Source of the DNA: Hahella sp. KA22 | GTDB lineage: Bacteria > Pseudomonadota > Gammaproteobacteria > Pseudomonadales > Oleiphilaceae | Assembly: GCF_004135205.1 (NCBI RefSeq) | Contig: NZ_CP035490.1 | Coordinates: forward strand, 4,569,644-4,633,643 | DNA: 64,000 nt | Direction: 5' to 3' | Shown here: in pieces, positions 26,650 through 29,722 of the stretch | Position numbering within the stretch: position 1 is the first letter of the stretch | Layout: every line of letters starts with the position of its first letter | Translations under genes and position numbers: made by a program | Notes under the pieces: generated by a model | Database searches by the model: none | The model's input: the letters and a program-made list of their open reading frames with translations, nothing else | What the model was told of the DNA's origin: nothing

Positions 26650-27897
26650 CTACTCTGCATACGCAGCCTCAATAGTTGGCTCACTTACAGAAACGTCCCC
26701 ACAATTAGCGACAGACAAGGCTTCTCTCACCATCGCAACGAGATCATCCCGAGACGCCAACGCCTGTTCACTACCGCGACGTCGCACCACAACCGAGTCG
26801 CTCGCCATCTCCTGCGCGCCGACGATCAAGATGACGGGCGTTCTGCTCCGCCTCAACAGCTTCATTTTTTTCGCCAGGGAAACATCGTCCAGGTCCATTT
26901 CAACGTGTACGCCGTGACGCCTCAGCAATGCGCCAACGCTTTCGCAGTAGGCGACAGAGTCTTGTCCCACTGAAGCCAGCACCACTGGTTGAGGATGCAC
27001 CCAGGCTGGCAGCGCCGCCTGATAAGACTCCAGCAGCACGCCAATCCAGCGCTCAATGGAGCCATACACCGCCTGGTGCAGAATCACCGGCCTACGCCGT
27101 TCTCCGGCGGCGTCGATATAATGCAGGTCAAAGCGCTCCGGCATGTTGAAGTCCAACTGGATAGTGCCCATCTGCCATTGACGCCCCTGTCCGTCCTTGA
27201 GCGCCAGTTCAATCTTGGGTCCATAAAATGCGCCCTCGCCTTCCTGCCGAATAAACTCTGCGCCAGCCGCTTCACAGGCTTGCGTCAGCATGAGTTCAGC
27301 GCGTTCCCAGTCTGCAGGCGCGCCAAAGTAGTCCCGCTGTGGACGAGTGGATATGAAGACCTGGGGGCGTCCGTATCCGTAATCCGCATACACGCGTTCA
27401 GCTCGGCGCAAAAACGCCTGAATCTCTTCGCTGACCTGATCCCAGCGACAGAAAACGTGAGCGTCGTCCTGAGTGAACTGACGCAGACGCATCAAGCCAT
27501 TCAATGCGCCGGAGCGTTCATTGCGGTGCACCGAACCAAACTCGAACAAACGCAACGGCAGAGACTTGTAACTGCGCACGCCCCGTCTGTAGAGCAGAAT
27601 ATGCGCTGGACAGGACATGGGCTTCAGCGCATATTCCGGCTCATCGCCAAACCCTGCGCCGACAAACATGTCATCCGCGTATTTTTCCCAATGCCCTGAC
27701 GTCTCCCACAGCTCCCGCTTCAAGAGCTGCGGAGTGGCCACTTCCTGGAAGCCTTCGGCTTCATAGGCGGCGCGAATATGGTTCTTTACAGTCCGGAACA
27801 TCCGCCAGCCGCGCGGATGCCAGAACGCCATACCGGGTCCCTGGGGTTCTGAATGGAATAGATCGAGTTCTTCTGCGATATCGCGATGATTTTTCAT
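26650..27897 (-). CDS. Short threonyl-tRNA synthetase-like protein lacking TGS and editing domains
   Basis: A 415-residue class II synthetase; standard bacterial ThrRS has about 640. It begins at the catalytic core (RDIAEELDLFH, where the catalytic domain of full-length ThrRS starts) and ends with the anticodon-binding domain, so the N-terminal TGS and editing domains are absent. The zinc ligands that select threonine are kept: Cys95 (MSCPAH), His147 (DDAHVF) and His274 (ILHQAVYGSIERW), with spacing like the E. coli enzyme. Class II motifs are RLFEFGSVHRNE and the GSIERW region. It should charge tRNA-Thr but cannot remove mischarged serine. AGGAGG precedes the ATG by seven bases. Its mRNA starts with a Thr-codon attenuator (27962-28073), so synthesis should rise when Thr-tRNA is scarce. 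It is probably a stress or resistance paralogue of a housekeeping thrS elsewhere. Confidence 0.88.
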   Translation of the reverse strand: MKNHRDIAEELDLFHSEPQGPGMAFWHPRGWRMFRTVKNHIRAAYEAEGFQEVATPQLLKRELWETSGHWEKYADDMFVGAGFGDEPEYALKPMSCPAHILLYRRGVRSYKSLPLRLFEFGSVHRNERSGALNGLMRLRQFTQDDAHVFCRWDQVSEEIQAFLRRAERVYADYGYGRPQVFISTRPQRDYFGAPADWERAELMLTQACEAAGAEFIRQEGEGAFYGPKIELALKDGQGRQWQMGTIQLDFNMPERFDLHYIDAAGERRRPVILHQAVYGSIERWIGVLLESYQAALPAWVHPQPVVLASVGQDSVAYCESVGALLRRHGVHVEMDLDDVSLAKKMKLLRRSRTPVILIVGAQEMASDSVVVRRRGSEQALASRDDLVAMVREALSVANCGDVSVSEPTIEAAYAE

Positions 27898-27961
27898 GGT
27901 TCGCCTCCTACGGCTTCGTTTTCAGTACAAATTCAGGACCCGAAACGAAAACAAGAAGGCG

Positions 27962-27993
27962 AAAAAAAACCCTCCGGCTTTCGCTCGGAGGGT
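27962..27993 (-). terminator. Attenuator terminator in the ThrRS-like leader
   Basis: On the minus strand ACCCTCCG pairs with CGGAGGGT, with a bulged A, two inner G-C pairs and a GAAA tetraloop, followed by eight T. It stands about 65 bases before the ThrRS-like ATG, so it would stop most transcripts ahead of the gene. Its 5' arm (ACCCTCC) can instead pair with GGAGGGT at 28016-28022, the last codons of the leader peptide, giving a mutually exclusive antiterminator. Confidence 0.85.
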
Positions 27994-28013
27994 CCTTATT
28001 CTTCAGACGCGCA

Positions 28014-28073
28014 CTACCCTCCAAGCCAGTTGGTGGTGGTGCGGGTGGTCGAAAAAAGATTGATGAGTTTCAT
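28014..28073 (-). CDS. Threonine-rich leader peptide (attenuator), 19 aa
   Basis: A 19-codon ORF ending at TAG 28014-28016, with the run STTRTTT encoded by five ACC codons near the middle, then NWLGG. This is the hallmark of an amino-acid attenuator such as E. coli thrL. Ribosome stalling on the ACC codons when Thr-tRNA is short would leave the GGAGGGT segment in codons 18-19 free to pair with the terminator's 5' arm, allowing read-through into the ThrRS-like gene. Completed translation covers that segment and lets the terminator form. The ATG at 28073 has no clear ribosome site; an in-frame ATG four codons upstream is possible. A TTGCCG/TATGTT promoter (18-base gap) would make the message nearly leaderless. 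Confidence 0.78.
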   Translation of the reverse strand: MKLINLFSTTRTTTNWLGG

Positions 28074-28201
28074 GTGGGCAAACATAGCATTGAAATCAAT
28101 GCAGCGGCAATCCTGATGAGGAATAATTTTTAACGCACGATGGACGCCCTGCGGCGAAAAACTAAACTTTACTATGCAGTCGTTAGAAATGGAGGTCCGA
28201 T

Positions 28202-29722
28202 ATGTCACGCACATTCGAGCGTCAAGACGCCCCTTTCACTTCCGATCGTTCTACTCCCGATAATTCCGATATTCCCGCTCCCCCCTTATATACGCCGTTT
28301 ATGCGCCGTCACATTCGCGCTGCGGCGGATCACTTGCGCAATGATTCCGAACAATTGCGGCAATGTTCTCCCGAACAGCAGCTGTACCACCAATATATCG
28401 ACGCCGACGAGCCTCATGGCCCGCCGCTGTACGCAGTAAAAGGCGAGCATTGGAACGGGGTCTGCCCGGGCTTTCTGGACTTTATCAACCAGTTCGCCTT
28501 TCGACCTGAAGACATGGGGTACGCGGAGTGTGGTTACGGTATTCAGCGTCATCGCGACTTCCTGCATCGCCTGATTCTCGCCGAGCATGACCTGCATTCG
28601 CTGCAGCAAGGCTTCGCCGGCCGTATTGACGTCGGTTGTCTGGCGATGACGACGCGCATGGCCATGTACGATCTGGCGAAAGTCGCATATCGGCAATTCA
28701 AGACCCGTTGGCCCGAGGCCGCTCCGGTGGCATTGGTCCCTACTCCCAGCTGGGACTATCGGGGGATTTTCAAAGATGTGGGCTTTGAAGTGGTCTACCT
28801 GCCCATCCGGCCACAACATGGCTGGCGGCCCAATTTGTCGGAATGGAAGGACATTATCGGCGATCTGCGCGGACTGCAAAGTCGGCGTATTGCGCTCGCC
28901 GTCAGCAATCCGCAGCATAATCCCACCGGCATGCAGTGGCCGACGAAAGTGACCGAGCACTTGCTACAGGTTTGCGCCGAGGAGTCCGCTTATTTGCTCC
29001 TGGATGACGCCTACTTTAACGTGCACGACCCCAGAACGCCGATCGTGAACCATCTGAAGGCGCTCTTGCAGGCCTTTGATCAAAACGGCGGAGACAATGC
29101 GCTGGTTCGCTCCGGCATGTTTGAGCGCTGGGTTTCCACGCGCCCCTTCGGCAAGCAGTTCAGTTGCAACACCATGGGCGTGGCGGCGATAACGACATCC
29201 CCTCTGCTGCTGCGTCAACTAGCCCGTGAATCCTGGATCAACCGCTACCACTGTAATACCCACAATGCGGAAGTCATGTGCGCCTGGCTGGCCACACAGG
29301 ACGCCGCGGATTGGACGGTAGAAACCGGGCTGCAATACGCCCGGCAGAAAGAACATGTGAAGCAGTATCTGGTGACGCACTTGGGTTGGCCTCAAGACGA
29401 AGTCTGCATCGGCCCCTCCACGTCTTACATGATTTTCGCCGTACCCGAGGTCTATCAAAAAGAGCCCGCCGGCATTGATCGCTTCCGCGACGACCTGTTC
29501 TACGCGACCGGCACAATGCTGTGCGCATCGCTATTCAACCAACAGGCCCCGGCGCCCTATGTGCGGCTTCACCTGGGGAGTCATCCCGATATCATTGATG
29601 AGATTTTGAGGCGCTGGAGCACAGGTGGATTACACTATCGACAGAAAAGCCCCTTTGCGGGCCAGGAAGCGCTCAAAACGCCGCTGCCTCAGCAGCGTTT
29701 TCGAACGCAGGCTGAAAGCTGA
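28202..29722 (+). CDS. Class I/II PLP-dependent aminotransferase, divergent group
   Basis: A 506-residue fold type I PLP enzyme. PTPSWDYRGIF, SNPQHNPTGMQW (PLP-binding Asn), LLLDDAYFNVHD (Asp that contacts the pyridine N) and RPFGKQFSCNTMG (likely Schiff-base Lys) are in the usual order. The N-terminal 90 residues and the polar C-terminus are longer than in common aminotransferases, so it belongs to a distinct, poorly described subgroup. The GGAGG site is seven bases upstream of the ATG. It is divergent from the attenuated ThrRS-like gene; the two promoters share about 130 bases. A link to threonine or threonine-like amino acids is possible but unproven. Confidence 0.8.
   Translation: MSRTFERQDAPFTSDRSTPDNSDIPAPPLYTPFMRRHIRAAADHLRNDSEQLRQCSPEQQLYHQYIDADEPHGPPLYAVKGEHWNGVCPGFLDFINQFAFRPEDMGYAECGYGIQRHRDFLHRLILAEHDLHSLQQGFAGRIDVGCLAMTTRMAMYDLAKVAYRQFKTRWPEAAPVALVPTPSWDYRGIFKDVGFEVVYLPIRPQHGWRPNLSEWKDIIGDLRGLQSRRIALAVSNPQHNPTGMQWPTKVTEHLLQVCAEESAYLLLDDAYFNVHDPRTPIVNHLKALLQAFDQNGGDNALVRSGMFERWVSTRPFGKQFSCNTMGVAAITTSPLLLRQLARESWINRYHCNTHNAEVMCAWLATQDAADWTVETGLQYARQKEHVKQYLVTHLGWPQDEVCIGPSTSYMIFAVPEVYQKEPAGIDRFRDDLFYATGTMLCASLFNQQAPAPYVRLHLGSHPDIIDEILRRWSTGGLHYRQKSPFAGQEALKTPLPQQRFRTQAES

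Follow-up and report, generated by a model that had tools for sequence, protein, structure and literature searches.

A predicted threonine-codon attenuator upstream of an auxiliary, editing-less threonyl-tRNA synthetase gene in Hahella

The locus

The window analysed here is a stretch of 64,000 nucleotides from Hahella sp. KA22 (GCF_004135205.1, contig NZ_CP035490.1, positions 4,569,644 to 4,633,643), and its minus strand carries a threonyl-tRNA synthetase (ThrRS) gene preceded by a short threonine-rich open reading frame (ORF). An earlier note, made from the letters of this DNA, had described a 19-codon ORF with the stretch STTRTTT and five ACC codons, a terminator with a GAAA loop and eight T, and then an AGGAGG in front of the synthetase gene, and all these elements are present (Table 1). 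Three points go beyond that note: the gene appears to be a second ThrRS gene whose product has no editing region, a protector hairpin covers the Thr codons, and a promoter-like site would place the RNA start near the leader ATG. The ThrRS gene stands alone, with a convergent gene for an F5/8 type C domain protein on one side and a divergent gene for an aminotransferase-fold protein (28202-29722, plus strand) on the other. The latter protein shows only weak similarity to models of GntC and capreomycidine synthase, with scores that fall far short of the cut-offs.

Table 1. Features of the leader region and the synthetase gene (positions in the window)
Feature	Position	Strand	Remarks
Candidate -35 element TTGCCG	28105..28110	-	with the -10 element, top-scoring sigma-70-like pair within 70 nt upstream of the leader ATG
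Candidate -10 element TATGTT	28081..28086	-	ends 7 nt before the leader ATG
Leader peptide ORF MKLINLFSTTRTTTNWLGG-stop	28073-28014	-	19 codons, 5 of them ACC (Thr); direct reading
Protector (1:2) hairpin	28011..28042	-	Thr codons pair with the antiterminator strand; MFE fold
Antiterminator strand CUUGGAGGGU	28025-28016	-	last leader codons
Terminator hairpin ACCCTCCGAGC-GAAA-GCCGGAGGGT	27993-27969	-	GAAA is a GNRA loop; 5' arm common to the antiterminator
U8 tract of the intrinsic terminator, eight T	27969-27962	-	direct reading
AGGAGG Shine-Dalgarno of the synthetase gene	27909-27904	-	direct reading
Predicted auxiliary threonyl-tRNA synthetase, 415 aa	26650..27897	-	ATG at 27897; catalytic core and anticodon-binding domain

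The auxiliary synthetase

The ThrRS of the window scores 429.8 bits against TIGR00418, above the equivalog cut-off of 383.65, and the match covers positions 171-562 of the profile only. Its Pfam domains are limited to PF00587 and PF03129, and neither TIGR00418 nor Pfam detected the TGS/N2 editing region, so that the protein is not a full-length ThrRS. A full-length housekeeping thrS (639 aa, L102) lies elsewhere in the same genome. Judged by its sequence, the gene of the window is not this housekeeping thrS but an auxiliary ThrRS gene that lacks the N-terminal editing region, and each of the four leader-bearing genomes for which a second match was available (G000, G434, G728 and G730) likewise has a full-length ThrRS.

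Residues C96, H147 and H274, which are presumably the zinc ligands, are invariant in seven short ThrRS proteins, and so are Y225 and G226, the equivalents of E. coli Tyr462-Gly463. Met252 occupies the position of E. coli Leu489. Obafluorin is reported to act at Tyr462-Gly463 of E. coli ThrRS, where Ser in place of Gly463 gives resistance and the L489M change does not (PMC11252418). An ObaO-type role in obafluorin immunity was considered for the short enzyme and rejected, since G226 is kept and no Ser is found at that position. With both the presumed ligands and the Tyr-Gly pair invariant, the enzyme therefore looks active, and sensitivity to the inhibitor would be possible. A backup role appears to fit the short ThrRS best; its lack of proofreading may be a cost, may be covered in trans by the full-length enzyme, or may be useful.

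The leader ORF and its promoter-like site

The leader ORF of the window has no Shine-Dalgarno sequence (best match 2/6). The promoter-like pair upstream of it has the layout TTGCCG-18-TATGTT and a shuffle p of 0.075, with 0.060-0.155 in the other Hahella copies, so that the Hahella match is weak taken alone; a stricter promoter scan of the window did not report this pair. The scan was extended to 28 leaders, with the ATG picked from peptides already read and without the four Acaryochloris leaders and L144. In 27 of these, all but L184, the top-scoring sigma-70-like pair of the 70 nt scanned ends 6-8 nt upstream of the ATG. Shuffle p values do not exceed 0.03 in 23 of the 28, and those of the four Hahella leaders are 0.06-0.155. 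The site of Burkholderia arboris, for example, reads TTGACA-17-TAGATT-6-ATG. The best Shine-Dalgarno match among these leaders is 4/6 in G1335, a genome of the same order as the window, and 2 or 3/6 in the rest.

The leader transcript is probably leaderless, to judge from this layout: RNA polymerase would start on the leader AUG or no more than one or two bases away from it, and ribosomes would therefore read the leader as a leaderless mRNA. A leaderless attenuator ORF is reported for Sinorhizobium trpL (PMC10117765). A transcription start downstream of 28014, which the earlier note had named as something that would speak against attenuation, is not favoured, the best promoter-like site, weak as it is in Hahella, lying 7 nt before the leader ATG. 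Between the candidate -35 and -10 elements there is an inverted repeat of 7 bp, GCATTGA-TT-TCAATGC (28087-28102, minus strand); its role as an operator is doubtful because the repeat is imperfect in the other three Hahella copies.

Mutually exclusive structures and the position of the ribosome

The terminator stem, which is placed with its U8 tract between the leader and the ThrRS gene, has a folding energy of -18.5 kcal/mol. The proposal that GGAGGGT (28022-28016) pairs with the terminator 5' arm holds. The full helix, formed by CUUGGAGGGU (28025-28016) and ACCCUCCGAG (27993-27984), comprises 10 contiguous pairs including a single G-U, with a complementarity above that of 500 of 500 shuffles. 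The minimum free energy (MFE) fold of the free leader consists of the protector hairpin over the Thr codons (-13.4 kcal/mol on its own) and the terminator, and the leader fold reaches -44 kcal/mol against a shuffle mean of -33.8 (z -2.7; 3 of 200 shuffles as good). An Rfam search of the window, with Thr_leader and T-box included, returned no family at gathering score, and a tRNA or a known RNA family, considered as candidates, were rejected because none was found.

Nascent RNA was folded as a transcript that ends just before the 3' arm of the terminator, with a ribosome covering 11 nt past the A-site codon. In the window RNA, the antiterminator has an energy of -20.4 to -20.6 kcal/mol when codons 8-12 occupy the A site, is weaker at codons 13 (-12.2) and 14 (-4.4 kcal/mol), and is absent from codon 15 to the stop. 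It follows from these energies that a ribosome stalled at Thr codon 9, 10 or 12 would be effective, and one stalled at 13 or 14 less so. In these folding models the antiterminator is exclusive with the terminator and depends on the position of the ribosome, early Thr codons and stop giving opposite outcomes, which supports the mutually exclusive threonine switch that the earlier note had put forward. At equilibrium, with the whole terminator made and the 11-nt footprint, Pterm is 0.36-0.92 for codons 8-12 of the window leader: the terminator often wins, and the two forms are near balance at best. Because equilibrium folds often prefer the terminator, the attenuation model is a kinetic one, like that of classical attenuators.

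Five other leaders were folded, namely those of G1335, B. arboris and Caballeronia and both leaders of one Acaryochloris plasmid. In all five the terminator 5' arm pairs upstream with the ribosome on early Thr codons, and this pairing is absent once the ribosome has reached the stop; a single base of the arm was enough to count as upstream pairing. In B. arboris (codons 10-14, counted from 0) and Caballeronia (13-15), the antiterminator failed to form when the ribosome was placed at later Thr codons. Pterm at equilibrium is 1.00 in four of the five even with a stalled ribosome, and the ribosome-free RNA of the second Acaryochloris leader is the sole case of the five that prefers the antiterminator.

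Conservation in Hahella and G1335

Of seven genomes of the genus that were searched, four have the short ThrRS gene, and all four copies keep the ATG, STTRTTT, the antiterminator strand and the terminator, the Thr stretch and the 3' end of the leader being conserved throughout. As the four copies are near-identical, the conserved stretch may be kept as structure, not as coding sequence. Two of the three genus genomes that lack the gene have the aminotransferase orthologue (75% identical) beside other genes, and the third gave no aminotransferase match at the limit used.

In G1335 the leader is MNAYILFNISSTTTTSTTELLGG-stop and the ThrRS is 56% identical to that of the window. Between Hahella and G1335 all 10 terminator pairs are kept, two of them by double substitution (C-G to U-A), and so are all 10 antiterminator pairs, with 100% of cells paired across the five sequences in both cases. 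The antiterminator pairs survive changes because the leader-side G can pair with either C or U. The covariation score of the terminator was equalled by 18 of 500 shuffles, a procedure that cannot test covariation in the antiterminator, and this covariation amounts to one divergence event, because four of the five sequences are nearly alike.

Recurrence across bacteria

A Thr cluster was defined as at least 4 Thr in 7 codons within an ORF up to 400 nt upstream of the gene. By this rule a Thr leader precedes 29 of 31 distinct short ThrRS loci (28 of 30 in an earlier count) and 1 of 151 full-length rows. The earlier note had named relatives with the terminator but no Thr-rich ORF as evidence against attenuation; all four Hahella copies retain both. 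The 31 loci span Hahella, another family of its order, Burkholderiaceae, Acaryochloris plasmids, one phage and two presumed alphaproteobacterial families, the Burkholderiaceae and alphaproteobacterial labels of the G genomes being drawn from similarity and kinship codes; they are not independent, because four come from one genus and 19 from Burkholderiaceae. The 151 rows contain duplicates (L093 and L119, for example, are the same place); one further full-length row with too little upstream sequence was left out, and L198, L141, L153, L002 and L086, cut by contig or locus ends, were dropped. Placing the gene starts with three query proteins or with P0002 alone gave the same outcome.

Thr is the commonest cluster residue of the short set and among the rarest of the full-length set. 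No other residue exceeds 17 of 31 in the former (Gly, much of it from the antiterminator strand), and clusters in the latter are led by Arg (45), Leu (39) and Ala (21). With a hairpin and at least 6 complementary bases added to the rule, the count is 26 of 37 short rows (30 distinct ones and 7 duplicates, to which L207 adds the 31st locus) against 1 of 151. The single leader-like match among the full-length rows, L062, was judged to be due to chance, its Thr cluster being in a 38-aa frame that ends 238 nt upstream. Attenuation of this kind was also considered for housekeeping thrS (L102, L105) and for the threonine biosynthesis gene hom, and was rejected: the thrS upstream regions contain only ORFs with 3 Thr and no Thr cluster, and hom has no Thr-rich ORF upstream.

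Two loci of the short set escape the rule: the phage gene L144 is without a Thr leader, and L178 retains a run of nine Thr, then GGCGGG, and the terminator. In L178 (1329-1449; family of G730) an extra G in the G run of the leader extends the frame beyond the usual stop. Upstream of the short ThrRS of L144 (2474-3658; LR756504.1, a 636-kb phage record) there are a terminator and, by eye, a tRNA-like stretch. Among full-length thrS paralogues, L113 and L110 (Klebsiella and Thioclava plasmids) lie near a metal transporter, dihydroorotase and hemB, or hisI, presumably the kind of surroundings in which zinc-limitation paralogues are found.

Three of the first eight matches in the plasmid collection were short ThrRS genes, and their upstream regions, read only afterwards, have Thr-rich ORFs. 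Such a leader reads MNARFVTTTTTTTTTANGGLGGGCTS-stop in Burkholderia arboris and MNSHFFTLTTATTTTTFSGGSSGGRAR-stop in Caballeronia. The third gene is on a plasmid of the cyanobacterium Acaryochloris marina, and a second plasmid has a copy of it. Both plasmids are conjugative, and upstream of either gene stand tandem Thr leaders, two in number, with a separate terminator after each (L107 2100-2500, L142 3600-4000). The second leaders of the two plasmids are distinguished by one Thr codon and by two positions at which Thr and Ala are exchanged. Frame length was checked in 11 plasmid and phage records. The 398 genomes of the phylum contain at least six short frames that are not at a contig start (G000, G730, G656, G728, G434 and G605); those near contig starts (G634, G673, G539, G554 and G652), and also G558, were left out. 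Profile searches found short ThrRS in 17 of 249 genomes of the family of G730, three short frames among 17 genomes of that of G434, and short ThrRS in 2 of 390 genomes of the order of the window (the window and G1335). In class-wide searches with P0001 and P0002 the matches listed were filled with full-length ThrRS, and profile A2 performed better.

When the segment after the last Thr was shuffled, complementarity as good as the native one arose in 0-3 of 500 shuffles for the four Hahella leaders and in 8 to 460 of 500 for the Burkholderiaceae, alphaproteobacterial and Acaryochloris leaders (L175, 233; L185, 226), the script having misassigned the antiterminator in L146, L183, L107 and L142. 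Base composition alone explains much of the complementarity in the non-Hahella leaders, and this shuffle by itself proves little, because 0 of 500 shuffles were as good as the native sequence in L144, a locus that lacks a Thr leader. Among the 23 Burkholderiaceae and alphaproteobacterial leaders, GGCGGG occurs in 20 and CCCGCC in 22 of the terminators, their Hahella counterparts being GGAGGG and CCCTCC; L149 and L196 have GGCGGC, and L189 has neither form. Nine of these 23 terminators are without a good U tract (L111, L147, L148, L182 and L184-L188). The leaders differ strongly between the clades described below, yet they keep the Thr run, a mostly Gly-encoding antiterminator strand and the terminator.

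Descent of the cassette

A tree of 65 ThrRS proteins, including 21 of the 29 leader-bearing short ones, places Acaryochloris, G1335 and Hahella in one clade (100/99) and Burkholderiaceae with the two presumed alphaproteobacterial families in another (100/98). The union of the two is present in the best tree and weak (37/93; 68/91 before G1335 was added), and a quick tree with seven short rows gave it an SH-aLRT of 96. The phage protein (L144) falls outside both leader-bearing clades, and the long branches advise caution. A single origin of the leader-bearing short ThrRS is possible on these trees, in which case an old cassette would have been widely dispersed; the alternative is that a Thr leader became linked to a non-editing ThrRS separately in two lineages.

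Proposed mechanism and alternative explanations

It is highly probable, on the sequence and its predicted folds, that a ribosome-mediated transcription attenuator controls an auxiliary, editing-less ThrRS which would serve as a backup. The elements of the switch, their conservation, the mutually exclusive structures, the paralogue status of the gene and the recurrence of the arrangement all come from computation, and a model for the transcription start, ribosome stalling, read-through, enzyme activity and physiological trigger can be inferred from them. With enough Thr-tRNA, the ribosome would reach the stop codon and cover GGAGGGU, and the terminator would form. With too little, it would stall on the ACC codons and break the protector hairpin, and the antiterminator strand would then pair with the terminator 5' arm before the 3' arm is made, so that the ThrRS gene would be transcribed. 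Since the signal in this model is charged tRNA-Thr, both Thr starvation and failure of the housekeeping ThrRS would switch the backup on, and such failure may mean zinc loss, an inhibitor or damage.

It could be argued, tentatively, that the switch is real and that it normally responds to a housekeeping ThrRS disabled by a shortage of zinc or by a natural inhibitor, and not to Thr starvation, which would make the gene a resistance or metal-limitation paralogue. The Zur-controlled thrS2 of Anabaena is described as a paralogue of this type (PMC4787780, PMC6103462). In Acaryochloris, the neighbours of one copy include a Fur-family gene and a gene for a metal-binding protein and those of the other include cysS and folE, which suggests a link to metal limitation in that organism. 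An auxiliary TrpRS gene is also said to be under ribosome-mediated attenuation. However, the presumed zinc ligands are intact, so that no zinc independence is visible, the glycine equivalent to E. coli Gly463 is kept as G226, and four other leader-bearing genomes show, by eye in their ORF lists, no common zinc or antibiotic cluster or partner.

Very little favours an ordinary or constitutive premature terminator behind a Thr-rich ORF that is just incidental low-complexity sequence. ACC-rich runs do arise easily in G+C-rich DNA, and equilibrium folding often favours the terminator, but such an ORF would leave unexplained the distribution of Thr clusters between short and full-length ThrRS loci, as well as the persistence of Thr run, antiterminator strand and terminator in leaders that otherwise diverge between clades. 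The idea that control bypasses leader translation and works through, for example, a T-box-like element or an RNA element bound by protein deserves hardly any credence: the autoregulation of E. coli thrS illustrates that ThrRS genes can be controlled by RNA binding, but no Rfam family reached gathering score anywhere in the window and the conserved parts are those of a leader-peptide attenuator.

Relation to known systems

In E. coli, thrS is autoregulated at translation, and thrABC is preceded by thrL, whose Thr-rich leader peptide works through a protector, an antiterminator and a terminator and which mixes Thr and Ile codons and has a Shine-Dalgarno sequence. The switch of the window resembles thrL (Rfam Thr_leader) in its Thr-rich leader and in this three-structure logic; unlike thrL, it would control a synthetase and not threonine biosynthesis, it relies on Thr codons, it is probably leaderless and it has no Rfam match. 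The earlier note had set a Thr-attenuated synthetase gene against E. coli thrS; the attenuator interpretation is supported, but that comparison needs changing, as the gene is not thrS, which lies elsewhere. Auxiliary synthetase genes are the better comparison, because the window gene appears to encode an editing-less auxiliary ThrRS.

Bacillus subtilis thrZ is a second ThrRS gene, induced through T-box antitermination when Thr-tRNA is short. The gene of the window shares with thrZ its status as a second ThrRS gene and its induction on Thr-tRNA shortage, which is a prediction here, and differs from it in depending on leader translation in place of a T-box and in the missing editing domain of its product. 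Vecchione and Sello reportedly described, in 2010, an auxiliary, antibiotic-resistant TrpRS gene of Streptomyces under ribosome-mediated attenuation. There too a second synthetase gene would be switched on by this mechanism; the amino acid, the phylum and the enzyme are different, and the product there is a resistant one.

Attenuators have been predicted for Streptomyces trpS and leuS (PMC1262725), and hisS paralogues of bacilli are reported to have a His leader peptide in a 2010 survey, according to which leader-peptide attenuators had been known only in Proteobacteria and Actinobacteria before bacilli were added (PMC2965389). The pheST attenuator and, as described in these accounts, those of Streptomyces trpS and leuS and of bacilli hisS are like the present case in that a synthetase is attenuated via codons of its own amino acid, and unlike it in that here the amino acid is threonine, the target is an editing-less paralogue, and the arrangement extends over several proteobacterial families and one cyanobacterium. 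The auxiliary ThrRS of Anabaena (thrS2/T2) is described as editing-impaired, conditionally expressed and under Zur control, with the full-length ThrRS covering the missing proofreading in trans (PMC4787780). The window ThrRS resembles T2, as portrayed there, in being an editing-impaired auxiliary enzyme with conditional expression, predicted in our case, and differs from it in having no editing domain at all, where T2 keeps a degenerate one, and in its proposed control by a Thr leader, where T2 is under Zur. Attenuators of synthetase genes are thus already known, and what appears to differ here is a Thr leader on an editing-less ThrRS paralogue. Thr-leader control of a ThrRS gene was not found described in the open-access papers searched, most subscription papers lying outside the search.

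Significance

The tandem Thr leaders of Acaryochloris would be leader-peptide attenuators in a cyanobacterium. A further reading, speculative and improbable, is that of starvation-gated mistranslation: a Thr shortage means a high Ser:Thr ratio, and the non-editing ThrRS, released when Thr is short, would accept Ser at Thr codons and so keep ribosomes moving. On that reading, the leaderless Thr leader and the non-editing ThrRS would form a portable stress module, which would have spread over three proteobacterial classes (in the NCBI sense, the alphaproteobacterial one by presumed assignment) and cyanobacterial conjugative plasmids. A recurring cassette in which a ThrRS without proofreading would be expressed, by the logic of its sequence, when Thr-tRNA is scarce makes it possible to test directly whether bacteria tolerate or use Ser-for-Thr mistranslation under starvation.
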